A stretch of DNA of 64,000 bases from Bacteroidetes bacterium 37-13. Its GTDB lineage: Bacteria > Bacteroidota > Bacteroidia > Chitinophagales > LD1. Made by a program: the position numbers and the translations under genes. The DNA lies in assembly GCA_001897535.1 (NCBI GenBank), contig MKTC01000010.1, positions 1 to 64,000 on the forward strand, written 5' to 3'. The number at the start of each line of letters is the position of its first letter. Position 1 is the stretch's first letter. The notes under the pieces are model-generated. The model searched no databases and was not told the origin of the DNA. It was given only the letters and a program-made list of their open reading frames with translations. Shown here in pieces: positions 38,617 to 46,244 of the stretch.

Positions 38617-39309
38617 CTACGCTATAAGCAGTGCTTTTGCCTCTTCCGATTTTGCGGTAATGCTAAGTTTTTGATTTTCATTTACGATCCACCATTGTTG
38701 GCAGTTTTGAAATGCCACTTCAATATCGTGTGTGGAAACGATAATGATTTTGTTTTCAGTTTCCGCTATTTTGCGCAAATATGAAAACACAAATGCTTTG
38801 TTCTTGTAATCTAAAAAAGCGGTTGGTTCATCTAATAATAAAATTGGCGTTGCTTGAACTAAAGCTCGCGCAATTATTGATTTTTGCCGTTCGCCATCAC
38901 TAATTTCAGAGAGTTGTTTTTGGGCAATCTTTTCCATTTCAAGTTGCGAAATCACATTTTGAGTTTCGGCTGAATTACTTTGAACACTAAAGCCGGTTTC
39001 AAAACGATGCCTTCCTAATTGAATAAATTCTTGAACGGTCATAAACGAAATGGCATCTCTTTCAGTTCCGGCAATCGTAATTGCAGCAGCTTTCTTTTCT
39101 ATTGAAAATTGGTGTAAGTTTTTCCCTGCAACATTTACTGAACCGTGAAGCGGAGGAATAATTCCTGCAATAGTTTTAAGCAAAGTGCTTTTGCCAATGC
39201 CATTCGCGCCAAGCAAACCAATTAAACAACCATGTTCAATTTTAACTTGTATATTTTCAAGCAAAGTTTTGTTGCCATAGCCAATAGAAAGCTGCTTTAA
39301 TTCCAACAC
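38617..39309 (-). CDS. btuD: ABC transporter ATPase of the B12 importer (BtuD-like)
   Basis: 230 residues, starting at GTG 39309 ([12 protein letters not shown]), whose G is shared with the TAG stop of the permease gene: a one-base overlap, strong evidence for coupling. Walker A is GANGIGKST, the signature region is [13 protein letters not shown] (a variant of LSGGQ with SDGER), and Walker B is [12 protein letters not shown], followed by the switch His in VSTHD. It powers import through the FecCD/BtuC-type permease. The assignment to cobalamin rather than siderophore comes from the upstream riboswitch and BtuB/BtuG-like genes. It is the last gene of the operon, with rpoA following after 170 bp. 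Confidence 0.88.
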
Positions 39310-40337
39310 TATGCAAAAGTTGTTTTTTTGAATAAAATATAAATAACAAAAGGCGCACCAAGCAGTGAAGTAACAATGTTTAGCGGCAAAACCATATCGC
39401 TGCCGGGCACTGAAGAAATAATATTGCAAATGCAACAAACAATAGCGCCAACAATAATACTAGACATCATGAGCACAAATGTGTTTGAGGTTTTTAAAAC
39501 GCTACGACAAATGTGGGGCACTGCTAGACCTACAAAGGCAACAGGCCCACAAAAGGCAGTTACCGAGCCAACCAAAATAGCTGTAGAAAGAATAATTTTA
39601 CGTTTAACTTTATTTACTTCCACACCAACTGTTTCAGCAAATACTTCACCGCCAAGTAGCGCTTGCATCGGCTTTATGAGCGAAATACTCAATGCTAAAC
39701 CAATGGCGCAGCCTGCATATAAAATTTTCACTTCGTGAAGTGTGATATTTCTAAAACTTGCAAAGCCCCACAACACAAATTTCTGCAATTCCTCTTTGCC
39801 AGAAAATGCTTGAAGTAATTCAACCAAAGCGCTTATGGCGCTGCCAATCATTAAACCAATAATGAGTAACGAAACACTTTGCCGAACAGATAATGAAATT
39901 AAAAAGATGAGTAAAAAAACTAAAGCCGTACCCACAGCGGCTGCTACTGCAATGCTAAATGGCATATTGAGCCAATGCGCTAAAAAACTCTGTTGAGGTA
40001 GAAAATGTAAACCCATCAACACTAGCGCCACACCTAAACTTGCGCCTGCACTTATCCCTAAAATATAAGGTCCGGCAATCGGGTTGCGAAACATTATTTG
40101 CATTTGCAATCCGCTCACCGAAAGTGCTGCACCAGCAACTACCGCTGCCAAAGCTCCTGGCAATCGGTTCTTTAAAATTATTGTTTGATAGAGCGACTCA
40201 TCAGAATTTCCGGTAAGTATTTCAAAAATAACTTTGGGAGAAATATTCACCGAACCAATAAACAACTGCATTAGGAAAACTATTGGCAAAAGTACCAACA
40301 ATAGTAATAAAAACTTAGTGTGTTTAACGTCTATCAT
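39309..40337 (-). CDS. btuC: ABC transporter permease of the B12 importer (BtuC-like, FecCD family)
   Basis: 342 residues with about nine to ten membrane segments. FecCD hallmarks are RLPGALAAVVAGAALSVSGL, then NPIAGPYILGISAGASLGV, and the cytoplasmic coupling region near GPVAFVGLAVPHICR. It forms the inner-membrane channel as a homodimer. It starts at ATG 40337, overlapping the end of the binding-protein gene by 14 bp, and its stop overlaps the ATPase start by one base. FecCD permeases also serve iron-siderophore uptake; operon context favours cobalamin. Confidence 0.88.
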   Translation of the reverse strand: MIDVKHTKFLLLLLVLLPIVFLMQLFIGSVNISPKVIFEILTGNSDESLYQTIILKNRLPGALAAVVAGAALSVSGLQMQIMFRNPIAGPYILGISAGASLGVALVLMGLHFLPQQSFLAHWLNMPFSIAVAAAVGTALVFLLIFLISLSVRQSVSLLIIGLMIGSAISALVELLQAFSGKEELQKFVLWGFASFRNITLHEVKILYAGCAIGLALSISLIKPMQALLGGEVFAETVGVEVNKVKRKIILSTAILVGSVTAFCGPVAFVGLAVPHICRSVLKTSNTFVLMMSSIIVGAIVCCICNIISSVPGSDMVLPLNIVTSLLGAPFVIYILFKKTTFA

Positions 40338-41457
40338 TTTCTAACTTTTGATAGTACATCAATTGATAATTTGGTAACAGCTCCGGGTGAAAAATGCGAA
40401 TTAAATCTTTCAATACAATATTTGGCTTTGCAACTCCTGTTTCCCAGAAAGCATTACCGCCACCAGCATTTTCCATTCTATTATTATTAAACACCTCTCC
40501 TGCTTTAAACGCTTTAAATAGTTGAAATTTACTGTCTTGCGCACCAATTTCTTTCAAATTTTTAGCGCTATTTGGATTTAGCCAAATTGGTGCTTGCGCT
40601 GCGCGAGCAAACACTGCTTCAAAATCTAAATTTAATGTTCTGGAAGAAGTATCATTTTTCCACAAATAATTTCCTCCGGCATTATCAATAAATTTAGCAA
40701 AATAACTTTTGCCCGATGGCATATACCAAATTTCTTTCCAAGGCAAATTACAAAACACATCAGGCTTTTGCACAACACCTTTTGCCATTTCACTCAGCTG
40801 CAAATATTCCTGTTCAACCTCACTAAAAACACTATCTGCCAAAGCTTCTCTATCATAAAAAGCTGCAATCATCTTCACCCATTCAGCACGAGCTAAAGGA
40901 TGAATTTCATTGTAATCGTTTACTAAAACAATTTTCAATCCTAAAGATTTTAATTTCGGCAAACTGCTATTGCCTTCTGTAAAACTATATGCAAAAACCA
41001 ACGAAGGCTGAAGCGACAAAATTTTCTCTTCGTTTATGCCGTTGTAATTTCCAATAGTTTGTGTTTTGCCGGAAGAAATATTTGCATGAACATTTTTATT
41101 AAAAATTCTTTCTGCATCACTCACTGCAATTATAGAATCAATTAAATTTAGTTCTTGCAGAAAACCTATTTGAGTAGTGGAAAGGCTCACATTTTTTCGA
41201 ACTGGCGCTTGAATAAATGTGGCATTATCAGGAACACTTTTCTTATTATTAGCAATGATGTAGTTTTCTATAACTTGTGTGGTGTCGTAAGCATTTCTTA
41301 CATGAATAATTTTATGGTCTTTAAATACTTCTATCCAAAAACCTTGCGCATACTTCGGGCGAATAATTTTAGTTGGCGTATCAGCAATTTCAGTTTTCTG
41401 AACTGCCGAATTACACGCGCTTAACAACAACAATAAGTAGAAAAAATACTTCGTCAT
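40324..41457 (-). CDS. btuF: Periplasmic cobalamin-binding lipoprotein (BtuF-like)
   Basis: 377 residues from ATG 41457; a TTG three codons earlier overlaps the upstream stop and is less likely. The signal KYFFYLLLLLSAC-N ends in a lipobox, so the protein is anchored, probably to the periplasmic face of a membrane. The helical-backbone receptor fold is shown by STTQIGFLQELNLIDSIIAV, then EKILSLQPSLVFAYSF, and LKSLGLKIVLVNDYNEIHP. The tail NPNSAKNLKEIGAQ belongs to the second lobe. It hands substrate to the BtuCD-like importer encoded next. The one-nucleotide gap to the BtuG-like gene and 14-bp overlap with the permease show a single operon. It is longer than E. coli BtuF (266 residues). Confidence 0.86.
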   Translation of the reverse strand: MTKYFFYLLLLLSACNSAVQKTEIADTPTKIIRPKYAQGFWIEVFKDHKIIHVRNAYDTTQVIENYIIANNKKSVPDNATFIQAPVRKNVSLSTTQIGFLQELNLIDSIIAVSDAERIFNKNVHANISSGKTQTIGNYNGINEEKILSLQPSLVFAYSFTEGNSSLPKLKSLGLKIVLVNDYNEIHPLARAEWVKMIAAFYDREALADSVFSEVEQEYLQLSEMAKGVVQKPDVFCNLPWKEIWYMPSGKSYFAKFIDNAGGNYLWKNDTSSRTLNLDFEAVFARAAQAPIWLNPNSAKNLKEIGAQDSKFQLFKAFKAGEVFNNNRMENAGGGNAFWETGVAKPNIVLKDLIRIFHPELLPNYQLMYYQKLENDRR

Positions 41458-41458
41458 T

Positions 41459-42499
41459 TTATTCAAAAATGAAACTATTTGTAATAATTCCTGTTTTAAA
41501 AGTTTGAATTAAATCGCCATTTGCTTTGTATCTAAAAACAGAAGAAGACTGCACATAATCTACCGCATCAGAAACATATATTTCATCACTCAAAGGATTG
41601 ATATTCAGTGCATATAAATTGCGATTATTACCACTAATAAATGCAGAAGCAGGAAGCGCACCTACATCTGCAATCATTCTAAACACGCCATTATTCAACC
41701 AATACAATTCATTTTTACCGGCATTGCTTCGCAAAGCAAACGGGCTGCTGCCGTTCATAAACTCCCATGTTTTCACAACACTTTTGGTAGTTGCATCTAC
41801 ACAAACCAATTTGGCATTAGAAGTACTGCTATGTTCACACATTACATAAATATATTTACCTATTTGTGCTAAACTATTTGGCTCAGAAGGCAAAGAAATT
41901 GTTTGCAAAATTTTGTTTGTAGAAGCATCTATTACCAACAAATTCGCAACATAAGTTCCATTCAATCGCGCGCGTTGAGTAATAAAAATATTATTATCTA
42001 TCTGTGCCATTTGCTCTGTCCAACCTTGTGCAGAAATAGTATCGAGTAAAGTGCCAATTGCAGGATTGATTACCCAAATTTTATTAGCATAAAGTTCGGT
42101 AACAAAAGCTTTGTTCGCAGAAACAAAATGCAAATAGCGCGGTGAGCTTCCGGTGAGTGAAATCGTGTATAATTCCTTATAGTTATCAGTATTCACCACC
42201 ACAATTTTTGCTGAATTATTTACAACAGTAAAAAGTTGTTTATCTCGAACTACTGCTGTTTGAGCCACATCGCCCATTTTTTTATTGTTTGCAGTTTCAT
42301 AAACGTTTTTAAACACCGTTTGCGAATCAGGAAAATAAACATCTAAAGATGAATTTCCGAACTGAAAGTTTCCTTCGTTTACAATCCAAACTTTCTTAGC
42401 AACACTATTTGGAAGTTCACTTTTATCGGGCATTTTTTCGCACGAGGTCCAAAGCGTTGCTATTGAAAATAATACAACAATCGAAAAAATATATTTCAT
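41459..42499 (-). CDS. btuG: BtuG-like surface lipoprotein, beta-propeller (YncE/DUF5074 type)
   Basis: 346 residues. The N-terminus IFSIVVLFSIATLWTSC-EK is a lipoprotein signal. The mature part has propeller blades of the YncE kind: KVWIVNEGNFQFGNSSLDVY, ETANNKKMGDVAQTAVVRD, then repeats such as KIVVVNTDNYKELYTISL and KIWVINPAIGTLLDTI. Proteins of this form (BtuG in gut Bacteroides) cap the BtuB channel and catch cobalamin with very high affinity; that is known for the family, while here it rests on fold, position beside BtuB and riboswitch control. It overlaps the btuB stop region by 4 bp. A plain YncE-like protein of other use is the alternative, made unlikely by context. Confidence 0.82.
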   Translation of the reverse strand: MKYIFSIVVLFSIATLWTSCEKMPDKSELPNSVAKKVWIVNEGNFQFGNSSLDVYFPDSQTVFKNVYETANNKKMGDVAQTAVVRDKQLFTVVNNSAKIVVVNTDNYKELYTISLTGSSPRYLHFVSANKAFVTELYANKIWVINPAIGTLLDTISAQGWTEQMAQIDNNIFITQRARLNGTYVANLLVIDASTNKILQTISLPSEPNSLAQIGKYIYVMCEHSSTSNAKLVCVDATTKSVVKTWEFMNGSSPFALRSNAGKNELYWLNNGVFRMIADVGALPASAFISGNNRNLYALNINPLSDEIYVSDAVDYVQSSSVFRYKANGDLIQTFKTGIITNSFIFE

Positions 42500-44373
42500 A
42501 ATTTAATACTTAAAGTTCCTTCAAAATTTCGGGGAGGCATTGGCATTTGAGCTACATCTTGGTAAAAAACATTACCTAAATTATTCACTCTAAAAGCAAA
42601 CTGTAATGCCGATTTAGAGAATGTGAGCACTTTAGAAAATTCAATATCAAAAATAGAATATGGTGCAAGCGCATCGCTATTATCGGTACTGATGTAGCGC
42701 AAGCCTGTGTAGCGATAATACATTGCAGCTTTAAAACCATAATAGCTTATCGCCAAAGCACTCGAAACGCGATGCAAAGGCACATAAATCACTTGTTTTC
42801 CAACAGCATCATCATTGGTGAATACCGATTTCGTTTGCGTTGAACGTGTGAAACTATAACTCACATTTCCGGTAATATTAAAATGCGGAACCAACGATTG
42901 AGGCAAAGAAAAAGTTGCTGAAACTTCAACGCCTCTTGCAAAAACACTCTTGAGGTTTTGAGGTCGCCAGTTACCTGAATAGTCTGGTGTCCATTGAATT
43001 TGATTGTTTATCCAAGTATAAAAGGTTGCAGCCGAAAAACTAATCTGCGATTTCCATTTATAGCTAAAAGTGACATCGGTATTCCAACTATTTTCAGGCA
43101 GTAAATTTTTTGAACCGCTGTTTAGCCAAAATAAATCGTTAAAAGTTGGAAAGCGAAAACTGCGCTTACCCGTAACTTCCAAGCCAACAAAATGCGACTT
43201 TACTTTTCTTGAAAAAGCAGCAGAAACAAAAGGCATAAACGGAGATTGTTTTTGATTCATAAACTCCTGCCGCAAACCTGCTGCAAAATTGAAACCTTGC
43301 CGCAAACTATAACTCACCTTACTCGAAAAGCCATACAAAACGCGCTGGTGTTCACTTTCGTAACCTGCACTTTGCGCTTTTTCATAATCGGAAAATGCAT
43401 TCACTTCAATAATAAAATACTTAATACGATAATTAAAATTAAAGGAGTTTCGCCATGCGTGTGTGATGCTTTTATCATTTGTGAGCAACTGATAATTGTT
43501 ATATTGCAAAGCATCACGCAAATAAGCAGTTGTGAAATTGAGTCGCATTTTTTGCTTAGTATATTTCCAACGCAGCATTGTTCGCACGGCATTATCATTT
43601 TGAAAAGCTTTGCTGCTCTGTTGCAAAAGTGTAGGCGGAATTTGCCTTTGCGATTGATTATACCACGCAAAAATTTCTACTTCATTTCTTGCATTTATTA
43701 AATAATTCAGTTGTTGAAAAAATGCCCATTGCAAAACTTCTGCATTGGTTTGTTTGCTCTTTTCCTCATTTTTTAAAATTGGAAAATTGTTATCTGATTT
43801 CAACAATGCAACTTTTGAAGCAGCGCGAATTTTCTTGTTTCCATAGCTCACATTCATATTCGTTTGCAGCAAGCCAAAACTTCCGGCACGTATGCTGCCT
43901 TCAAAATGCGTAGCTGCTTCGGGCAATGAATTATTAAGTAAGATATTACTGCCGATTGCTGTATTTAATTGATTAAATTGAATACCGATACTGTTGTGAA
44001 AACCAACATTCAACAAGGCAAAATCGCTTTGCCCAAGCATGGGCGAATTTATTTTTATGCCGTTCCAAAGCACTTCGGTTTGCGAAGTGGTGGTGCCGCG
44101 CACAGCAACCGTAGTGAGTTGTCCATTGCCATAGTTTTTTAGATAAATGCTTGAAATTTCATTGAGCAAATCCGGCAAACGTTTGCCTGCATAATTCTCT
44201 AAACGCTCAAAGCGATGTTGTGAAGTATTTGCAGGTGTTTTGCTATCTGTAACTATAATTTCTTTTAGTTCTAAAGTATCATCAAAAACACTTGAATTTT
44301 GGGCAAAACAACTCACCGAACTCACTACCAAAATGATAGTAAACGTAACAGTTGCTGTTTTACCCAAAAACAT
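42496..44373 (-). CDS. btuB: TonB-dependent cobalamin receptor (BtuB-like)
   Basis: 625 residues: signal peptide ending near SCFAQ, then the TonB-box-like stretch LELKEIIVTDSK, a plug domain (RLPDLLNEISSIYLKNYG, then LTTVAVRGTTTSQTEVLWNG) and a C-terminal 22-strand barrel ending in NFEGTLSIKL. It imports a ligand across the outer membrane using the proton motive force via TonB. Its length is close to E. coli BtuB (about 610), far shorter than SusC-type receptors, which fits a cobalamin channel. It overlaps the BtuG-like gene by 4 bp and follows the DUF4465 gene by 1 bp, all downstream of the cobalamin riboswitch. Confidence 0.9.
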   Translation of the reverse strand: MFLGKTATVTFTIILVVSSVSCFAQNSSVFDDTLELKEIIVTDSKTPANTSQHRFERLENYAGKRLPDLLNEISSIYLKNYGNGQLTTVAVRGTTTSQTEVLWNGIKINSPMLGQSDFALLNVGFHNSIGIQFNQLNTAIGSNILLNNSLPEAATHFEGSIRAGSFGLLQTNMNVSYGNKKIRAASKVALLKSDNNFPILKNEEKSKQTNAEVLQWAFFQQLNYLINARNEVEIFAWYNQSQRQIPPTLLQQSSKAFQNDNAVRTMLRWKYTKQKMRLNFTTAYLRDALQYNNYQLLTNDKSITHAWRNSFNFNYRIKYFIIEVNAFSDYEKAQSAGYESEHQRVLYGFSSKVSYSLRQGFNFAAGLRQEFMNQKQSPFMPFVSAAFSRKVKSHFVGLEVTGKRSFRFPTFNDLFWLNSGSKNLLPENSWNTDVTFSYKWKSQISFSAATFYTWINNQIQWTPDYSGNWRPQNLKSVFARGVEVSATFSLPQSLVPHFNITGNVSYSFTRSTQTKSVFTNDDAVGKQVIYVPLHRVSSALAISYYGFKAAMYYRYTGLRYISTDNSDALAPYSIFDIEFSKVLTFSKSALQFAFRVNNLGNVFYQDVAQMPMPPRNFEGTLSIKL

Positions 44374-44374
44374 T

Positions 44375-45352
44375 TTAGTAAACGTTTAGCTTAACTGTTT
44401 GCAATGAATTTTTAGAGCGAATTGTAGCAAAGTAAATTCCCTGCAACAAGCCATCGGTTGAAATGGCCGCTTGCTTTTTCTTTACAAAACTTTCTGTTTT
44501 TACCACTGCACCATTTATTGCAGAAACAGTAACTGAAAAATCTTTAGACTCAGTTAATTCTACATTAAAAAGCTGACCTGCTGCAATTGGATTTGGATAA
44601 ACACTTGCGTTGATATTTTCAACTTCATTAAGCGCTGTTATACCATCATAAAATGTAAAATTATCCATTGCAAAATATACCGGAGTATTTATTCCTAAAG
44701 AACCTGTATCACTTGAAGTGTATTGAAAACTCAAACTATCTATATTGCCCAAAGCTGCTAAATTCACCCAAGCCCAATCGCTTAAAATGTAATCTTGAGT
44801 AGAGTCAGCAAATCTATAATCGGCTAAATAGAAATTTACAGTATCAGTCTTTTGAGTTCCGTTTAAATAGCCCTTCACGGTAACATAAAAATAATCTGAA
44901 TCGGTTCCGTTTGTCCCTCCAAATTTTTTCGCAAAACCATCACCATCTTTCATACTTAAATAAGCATAAGTTGTATTAGTAATGTAAAATCCCTTTACAT
45001 TTTTTCCTGCTGCATTTCCACTTAGTTTTATGCTCCCCGAACCGTAGTTTACTGCGTAGGTTGAGCTGCTATAACCGCTTCCAGTAATAGCACTATATTG
45101 ATTTGAAAAGCCAGGAGTAACAATATCTTGTTTACTTGAAGGCACAAAACCATTGCCCCAATAACCACCGTAAGCAGTATCCCAAAAAGAATGAAAATAA
45201 ACTAGCGAATCGCCAAAGCCACCGTTTAAATTTTTAGAAGAGGTAAAAGAGTCAGCCGCTACAGATAAATTTTCAAAAGTGTAAACAACTTGTGCGTTTA
45301 CAGAAAAAGAGAAAGTGCAAATAGCACTAAGAAAAAGGTAAATTTTGTTCAT
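44375..45352 (-). CDS. DUF4465 surface protein with T9SS sorting domain, first gene of the B12 operon
   Basis: 325 residues. A signal peptide (IYLFLSAICTFSFSVNA-Q) is followed by a DUF4465 domain (about 25-235), with YWGNGFVPSSKQD, NQYSAITGSG and a C-terminal VYFAMDNFTFYDG, then a T9SS type A sorting domain (about 250-325: SVYPNPIAAGQLFNVEL). It is therefore probably sent to the cell surface. It is directly controlled by the cobalamin riboswitch and lies 1 bp from btuB. DUF4465 proteins recur in cobalamin loci of Bacteroidota, where some surface accessory proteins bind B12; the T9SS tag in place of a lipoprotein anchor is notable. A B12-binding role is inferred, not shown. Confidence 0.85.
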   Translation of the reverse strand: MNKIYLFLSAICTFSFSVNAQVVYTFENLSVAADSFTSSKNLNGGFGDSLVYFHSFWDTAYGGYWGNGFVPSSKQDIVTPGFSNQYSAITGSGYSSSTYAVNYGSGSIKLSGNAAGKNVKGFYITNTTYAYLSMKDGDGFAKKFGGTNGTDSDYFYVTVKGYLNGTQKTDTVNFYLADYRFADSTQDYILSDWAWVNLAALGNIDSLSFQYTSSDTGSLGINTPVYFAMDNFTFYDGITALNEVENINASVYPNPIAAGQLFNVELTESKDFSVTVSAINGAVVKTESFVKKKQAAISTDGLLQGIYFATIRSKNSLQTVKLNVY

Positions 45353-45479
45353 GTTTTAAACACGTTTTTAAATGATGAAAAAATCACCTTCGATAGGAAA
45401 ATAGGAAACACCAAATTGTCCGGTTCAATATGGTATCACACCTAACTTTTCTTCCCGAAAGTTTGAATGTTTGTTTTGC

Positions 45480-45680
45480 TATGGCAGGTCTTCTGGCTCA
45501 CCGATTTTGATTTTCCTTCCCATCGCGCTATTGGCAACAGTGGATTAGATTAAATCTTATTTCTTTCAAAAAAAATGAAAGAAATTCGGCTTACAGCAGC
45601 GGGAACTGCCTCCGACTTTCACGGAGTTCCCTTTTAATTCATTTCAGCTTTCGCTTACATTTTGAAACCGCAGCGGTGCA
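45480..45680 (-). promoter_or_regulatory. Cobalamin (B12) riboswitch
   Basis: Minus-strand RNA with the conserved blocks of the class: near the 5' end AGCGAAAGCTGAAATGAATT, GGGAACTCCGTG, then GGCAGTTCCCGCTGCTGTAA with GCC following, CCACTGTTGCCAATAGCGCG, GGGAAGG, and the B12 box at the 3' end GAGCCAGAAGACCTGCC (ending at 45484). It sits about 130 nt upstream of the DUF4465-btuBGFCD operon. Bound cobalamin should switch the operon off. In the leader a 9-bp hairpin with one mismatch (45410-45418 with 45426-45434) may be part of the expression platform. The promoter upstream is not clear (TCTATTTG at 45686-45679 is the best -7-like match). Confidence 0.95.
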
Positions 45681-45767
45681 AATAGAACTGTTTTGTTTTG
45701 AATTAAAAAACAAAAATGTTTAAATGGATTATGTACTGAATTAAAAATTCAATTTAATTGTACACAG

Positions 45768-46244
45768 ATGAATCCGAGATTTGAAACTATCCTTGAAAAG
45801 AAACTGATTGGAAACAAGTCAACCATGAGTTTTGCCAATTACAAAATTGGTGAATTATGGAAAATATTTATGCCTAAACGCCATTCAATTAAAAACAATT
45901 TAAACAGCGATTTAATTTCACTAACAATTTACCCTCCTAATTTTTTTACAGAATTTGAACCTACGCGAGCATTTGAAAAATGGGCTGTAATTGAAGTTTC
46001 AGATTTTGAAAACACTTCTACCGATTTTGAAAAGCTAATACTGCCAAGTGGACTTTATGCGGTTTTCAACTATAAAGGTTCAAGTAATGACAATTCAATT
46101 TTCAAATATATAATGCAGTCTTGGCTGCCTGATTCAAATTATCAATTAGATAACAGACCACACTTTGAAGTTTTAGGAAGTAAATACAAAAACAACGATC
46201 CATTATCGGAAGAAGAAATTTGGATTCCAATAAGAGAAAAGTAG
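45768..46244 (+). CDS. GyrI-like/effector-binding domain protein
   Basis: 158 residues, no signal peptide and no DNA-binding domain. The sequence fits the GyrI-like small-molecule-binding family (also the C-terminal domain of AraC-type regulators such as Rob and BmrR): FETILEKKLIGNKSTMSFA at the start, FEKLILPSGLYAVFNYKG in the middle and the characteristic end HFEVLGSKY, then SEEEIWIPI. Stand-alone members bind hydrophobic cations or, in GyrI, gyrase; the ligand here is unknown. It is transcribed away from the B12 riboswitch and converges on galE with a 7-bp gap. Link to B12 uptake is not implied beyond proximity. Confidence 0.82.
   Translation: MNPRFETILEKKLIGNKSTMSFANYKIGELWKIFMPKRHSIKNNLNSDLISLTIYPPNFFTEFEPTRAFEKWAVIEVSDFENTSTDFEKLILPSGLYAVFNYKGSSNDNSIFKYIMQSWLPDSNYQLDNRPHFEVLGSKYKNNDPLSEEEIWIPIREK

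Follow-up and report, generated by a model that had tools for sequence, protein, structure and literature searches.

A putative BtuJ-type vitamin B12 capture protein with a predicted type IX secretion route in a riboswitch-led uptake operon of a Bacteroidota bacterium

The analysed stretch of DNA (the window, 64,000 nucleotides of contig MKTC01000010.1 of Bacteroidetes bacterium 37-13) carries a corrinoid import operon whose first gene very probably encodes a BtuJ-type capture protein exported by the type IX secretion system (T9SS) and passing B12 on to BtuG-BtuB-BtuF-BtuCD, with a riboswitch controlling the operon. Computational support comes from the operon, the riboswitch, the protein family, its fold, a mostly kept ligand pocket, the C-terminal tail, the T9SS genes of the host and the recurrence of the arrangement in related genomes. 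This type of btu operon and DUF4465 as a B12-binding family are already known. The T9SS export route for a class of DUF4465 proteins appears to be unreported in the literature searched. On the minus strand the following features were found in the order riboswitch, DUF4465 with T9SS tail, BtuB, BtuG, BtuF, BtuC and BtuD:

45466..45687, minus strand: cobalamin riboswitch aptamer (RF00174; cmscan 90.6 bits, gathering score 31.5, E 4.1e-21)
45444..45463 (approximate), minus strand: candidate L13-type kissing hairpin AACUUUCGGGAAGAAAAGUU of the expression platform (recurrence of the CGGG loop in related leaders)
44375..45352, minus strand: DUF4465 (BtuJ-family) protein, 325 aa (PF14717 171.5 bits, gathering score 25; TIGR04183, Por_Secre_tail, 39.6 bits, cut-off 23)
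42496..44373, minus strand: btuB, TonB-dependent B12 transporter (Plug domain; PDB 8p98_A E 6.5e-41)
41459..42499, minus strand: btuG, DUF5074 beta-propeller surface lipoprotein (PF16819 71.8 bits, gathering score 27.2; 8p97_B E 1.5e-55; lipobox-like WTSC)
40324..41466, minus strand: btuF, corrinoid-binding protein with lipobox LSAC (Peripla_BP_2 83.7 bits; E. coli BtuF 1n2z E 2e-5)
39309..40337, minus strand: btuC, permease (FecCD 232 bits; BtuC model 164 bits, cut-off 334)
38617..39309, minus strand: btuD, ATPase, GTG start at 39309, stop at 38617 (ABC_tran 100.8 bits)

The first-pass annotation had described a complete, riboswitch-led B12 uptake operon with genes overlapping or 1 nt apart, and cmscan, the domain matches and the coordinates bear this out. 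Its end coordinate of 45680 was 7 nt short, as the riboswitch reaches 45687. From the DUF4465 gene to btuD, successive spacings are a gap of 1 nt, an overlap of 4 nt, a gap of 1 nt (or an overlap of 8 nt, depending on the start codon), an overlap of 14 nt and an overlap of 1 nt. For btuF the listed start is TTG, with an ATG at 41457 as another possibility. The operon is flanked by the rpoA gene on one side and on the other by a gene for a GyrI-like/Cass2 small-molecule-binding domain (45768-46244), which is divergent from the riboswitch and which nothing ties to the B12 system. The nearest solved relatives of BtuB and BtuG are both partners of the BtuB-BtuG complexes of B. theta (8p97, 8p98). 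The NCBIfam models for BtuB, BtuC, BtuD and BtuF all scored under their own cut-offs on the operon proteins; the top NCBIfam match of btuD was a corrinoid ABC ATPase, likewise under cut-off. Two further genomes of this genus keep the gene order (79% and 54% identity of the DUF4465 domain). Model scores and this conserved order together rule out a chance assembly. Compared to btu operon 2 of B. theta (BtuJ2-BtuH2-BtuL-BtuG2-BtuB2-BtuF-BtuC-BtuD-BtuX), the set of cobamide-uptake genes is nearly the same; however, BtuH and BtuL are missing from the window operon, and a putatively BtuH-like, T9SS-tailed protein is encoded unlinked elsewhere in the genome.

The genome of the window (3.12 Mb, 43 contigs) contains a single cobalamin riboswitch, at the head of the btu operon, and a single DUF4465 domain, within it. 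A leader of 113 nt separates the aptamer from the first ATG. The hairpin directly behind the aptamer (window ~45444-45463) exposes the loop CGGGAA, which complements the UUCCCG of a loop in the aptamer, and is a candidate kissing-loop partner of the expression platform. A hairpin with a CGGG loop was found in 42/72 related leaders versus 2% of shuffles. Folding of the leader was no stronger than that of shuffled sequences (z -0.92), and neither a terminator nor a Shine-Dalgarno switch was found in it. By its predicted riboswitch the operon would be repressed by B12. B12-dependent functions encoded in the genome include MetH, the methionine synthase, and the C-terminal domain of a methylmalonyl-CoA mutase. 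Synthesis of B12 was probed by one gene, cobB, whose profile had no match in the window genome and matched in 10/14 control genomes. Since metH and the mutase domain are present and cobB was not found, the organism uses B12 and probably imports it. The host furthermore possesses the T9SS sortase PorU (1258 bits) and the translocon protein SprA (2446 bits), with approximately 126 matches to type A tails genome-wide.

The DUF4465 protein consists of a Sec signal (residues ~1-20), a jelly-roll domain (~20-237) and a T9SS type A tail (251-322). Its AlphaFold2 model reached a mean pLDDT of 93.9 and superimposed on BtuJ1 with bound cyanocobalamin (9qpm) with a Z of 26.9 and an rmsd of 2.0 over 207 residues; further structural matches were 9hmu (Z 25.3) and 9i2l (Z 23.0), all in agreement with the augmented beta-jelly-roll fold. 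In B. theta, the lipoproteins BtuJ1 and BtuJ2 bind B12 with high affinity and load extracellular vesicles with it (PMC12751083). B12 binding was also shown for another six DUF4465 proteins that diverge widely, namely D5EK51, Pan, Fluta, 656, Cylst and Halo (PMC13398666), which brings the published binders to eight (PMC13398666, PMC12751083). In BtuJ1 the vitamin is held by W78, Y97, Y146 and Y245 (PMC12751083); these align with W65, F82, Y129 and Y226 of the window protein, so that three of the four mapped aromatic residues are identical and only Y97 is exchanged, for F82. Y129 is the tyrosine of the DE helix, while Y226 belongs to the NTP-Y motif of the HI loop, which is kept as NTPVYF. In an alignment of 74 rows (the window protein and its relatives) the W65 position was W in 72, the F82 position F or Y in 66, the Y129 position Y in 68 and the Y226 position Y in 58 and F in 15, with the N-T-P motif nearly invariant. 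Sequence and model thus suggest that the window protein binds cobalamin. Binding of B12 by DUF4465, raised as a possibility in the first-pass annotation, is no novelty, as the family was published as B12-binding in 2025-2026.

What sets the window protein apart from BtuJ1 and BtuJ2 is its address. Family (DUF4465, IPR027828), fold, most of the mapped pocket and a riboswitch-led cobalamin operon with btuB and btuG are shared; however, BtuJ1 and BtuJ2 are lipoproteins enriched in extracellular vesicles, while the window protein combines a Sec signal, MNKIYLFLSAICTFSFSVNAQ, with a T9SS type A tail. This signal has no lipobox, which places the protein outside the narrow sense of BtuJ1/BtuJ2 as lipoproteins. 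Besides TIGR04183, PF18962 also recognised the tail (36.3 bits, cut-off 27). The last 80 residues fold like the C-terminal domains (CTDs) of T9SS cargo, with mirolase (8qb1, Z 12.0) and translocon-bound NucA (8glk, Z 11.4) as matches. The window protein shares with these two its CTD fold and, judged by the family model, its kind of tail, but their cargo domains are enzymes, whereas that of the window protein is a predicted vitamin-binding domain. Delivery by the T9SS, as proposed beforehand, is therefore a predicted route supported by the tail, the CTD fold and the T9SS machinery of the host. More than 70% of the DUF4465 family were predicted to be lipoproteins and the rest to carry periplasmic targeting signals (PMC13398666). 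That study demonstrated B12 binding for members of the same family and is silent on the T9SS; neither T9SS nor type IX occurs in the main text of PMC12751083 or PMC13398666. Among open-access papers in PubMed Central none was found that connects the type IX system to either BtuG or cobalamin riboswitches. One of the published binders, Fluta (F2I9N3) from Fluviicola taffensis, may itself be a T9SS-tailed DUF4465 protein.

In order to follow the arrangement across genomes, a single scan of GTDB genomes was used, which yielded 553 relatives, of which the best 80 were kept as loci. These represent the neighbourhood of the window protein in sequence space, a biased sample, and the counts are therefore not frequencies for the DUF4465 family. 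TIGR04183 matched 74/74 scanned proteins (the window protein and 73 relatives from the best 80 of 553), and the remaining uncut relatives among these 80 likewise carried the tail according to a local tail profile. With a covariance model derived from 15 aptamers, a cobalamin riboswitch was detected upstream on the same strand in 76/80 of these best loci; the co-occurrence of DUF4465-T9SS proteins with cobalamin riboswitches, set in advance as one test of the proposal, was thus found. Rfam itself reported the riboswitch in 14/14 sampled loci, once weakly. Many loci in which the covariance model recognised it had been missed when the core of the riboswitch was sought by regular expression. Three of the loci lacking it are cut by the contig end (L054, L071, L097) and one is a real miss: in L064, the only such related locus, the upstream region is uncut and btuB precedes DUF4465, yet no cobalamin riboswitch was found. 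Two plans were found, riboswitch-DUF4465-(X)-btuB/btuG and riboswitch-btuB-DUF4465-(X)-btuG, with X a second T9SS-tailed protein. DUF4465 was present in 92/396 genomes of the order of the window and in 119/295 genomes of a second order. In four loci of this second order (L107, L111, L116, L119) DUF4465 is embedded in large T9SS-tailed proteins with frames of at least ~860 residues.

Considering the DUF4465 proteins of all loci fetched, 138 had a tail without lipobox, 26 a lipobox without tail, 13 neither (among them several cut-off proteins or lipoboxes missed by the pattern) and 3 both, the latter by a crude pattern. Lipoprotein forms were partly sought out on purpose, therefore only the near-exclusion of tail and lipobox across these ~180 proteins matters and not their ratio. 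The T9SS tail in place of a lipoprotein signal, pointed out as a new angle in the first-pass annotation, was confirmed; in this clade, however, most DUF4465 proteins have the T9SS form, and the window protein is no oddity. In the four SprA-less genomes G238, G230, G402 and G615 DUF4465 always occurred as lipoprotein; lipoprotein forms were also found in SprA-bearing genomes. A fifth genome (G519, 82% complete) had no SprA, yet a T9SS-tailed DUF4465, and another (G643) had a T9SS-tailed DUF4465 with a weak SprA match only and no full one. BtuG carried a T9SS tail in 0/42 cases; a lipobox was recognised by pattern in 37 of these and by visual inspection in the remaining five. The tail is therefore a feature of the capture proteins and does not extend to the operon as a whole. 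In L225, L227, L228 and L231 (genomes G410, G560, G523, G652) DUF4465 is a lipoprotein while the nearby X keeps its T9SS tail; both anchors can thus serve one locus. Repeated independent switching of the anchor was considered, with parsimony counting 5 changes, but is not claimed, because just 1 of these is required by well-supported branches and the underlying tree was quickly made.

Protein X accompanies DUF4465 in 45/80 loci (best 80 of 553) and is fused to it in 5 of them; fusions in both domain orders were seen (L029, L058, L074, L091, L101, L221; L224, L229). X has ~330 aa and no Pfam domain besides the T9SS tail. A looser lipobox pattern flagged many T9SS-tailed X proteins, and these flags were excluded. 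The core of its model (pLDDT 87.4) matched residues 392-660 of 8blw_B, B. theta BtuG1, with a Z of 11.5 and an rmsd of 3.4 over 168 residues at 15% identity. As this stretch sits behind the BtuG1 propeller and the protein was named BtuGH (PMC12751083), X probably binds B12 in the manner of BtuH. With 15% identity and no X-BtuGH link by sequence profiles, we treat this as a lead only; when X was compared by sequence with solved structures, the tail alone matched. Generic beta-sandwich enzymes, suggested by plain Foldseek matches of low TM-score, were set aside, the BtuGH match having come only from structural re-alignment. The X of the window genome (G000:C23:33033-33677, minus strand; L203/L232) is unlinked to the operon, has no riboswitch nearby and lies close to glmU-like nucleotidyltransferase and gltX look-alikes, named by eye. 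In a genome of the same genus (G691, L233) X is likewise unlinked.

When B12 is scarce, the riboswitch would permit expression of the entire corrinoid import operon. The DUF4465 protein would cross the inner membrane via Sec, its C-terminal tail would be recognised at the T9SS translocon (SprA, PorV), and after export PorU would cleave the tail, whereupon the protein would either be fixed to lipopolysaccharide at the surface or set free. The loops of the jelly-roll may then catch extracellular B12 and hand it over to BtuG, the lid of BtuB, from which it would pass via BtuB and BtuF to BtuCD and inward. The type IX pathway would in this way take the place of the lipid anchor used by gut Bacteroides.

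T9SS cargo can be released as well as attached, and the exported DUF4465 protein may act as a diffusing B12 catcher that is recovered later. Such a role would resemble that of vesicle-borne BtuJ in B. theta, where BtuJ-bearing vesicles deliver B12 to cells (PMC12751083). A freed protein would, however, be shared with neighbours, while BtuG and BtuB of the same operon stand ready at the surface; judging from sequence, we regard release as possible though on the unlikely side. It is improbable that the main ligand is a corrinoid other than B12 or another tetrapyrrole. Variation within the family is greatest in the pocket loops on the N-terminal side, which may matter for the lower ligand (PMC13398666), and Y97 is replaced, but the riboswitch and the Btu context, together with the retained W65, Y129, Y226 and NTP motif, point to cobalamin. 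Very remote is a periplasmic protein with a plain Ig-like C-terminal domain. The fold of the tail domain is common to many proteins, and periplasmic signals were given to the non-lipoprotein DUF4465 proteins (PMC13398666); against this, both tail models exceed their cut-offs, the nearest folds are genuine T9SS CTDs, the host has a T9SS, and a tail hardly ever occurs together with a lipobox.

We therefore favour the T9SS-exported capture protein feeding BtuG and BtuB, and for many Bacteroidota the likeliest interpretation is that the T9SS replaces the lipid anchor of the outer B12-capture proteins. A bolder version, which we hold to be unlikely, is that in much of the phylum the T9SS, in place of a lipid anchor, serves an outer capture layer made up of BtuJ-type and BtuH-like proteins, in some cases as fusions, and that part of this layer is released, diffuses, binds B12 and is recovered later. 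Scarcity of B12 shapes microbial communities, and the known capture proteins of Bacteroidota were described as lipoproteins of gut species. The window genome offers a clean case with one riboswitch, one DUF4465 protein and one complete operon. If the route holds for many environmental Bacteroidota, the published split into lipoproteins and periplasmic proteins would misplace a large DUF4465 class, the T9SS would gain a role in vitamin uptake, and the question would be raised whether captured B12 is kept on the cell or shared.
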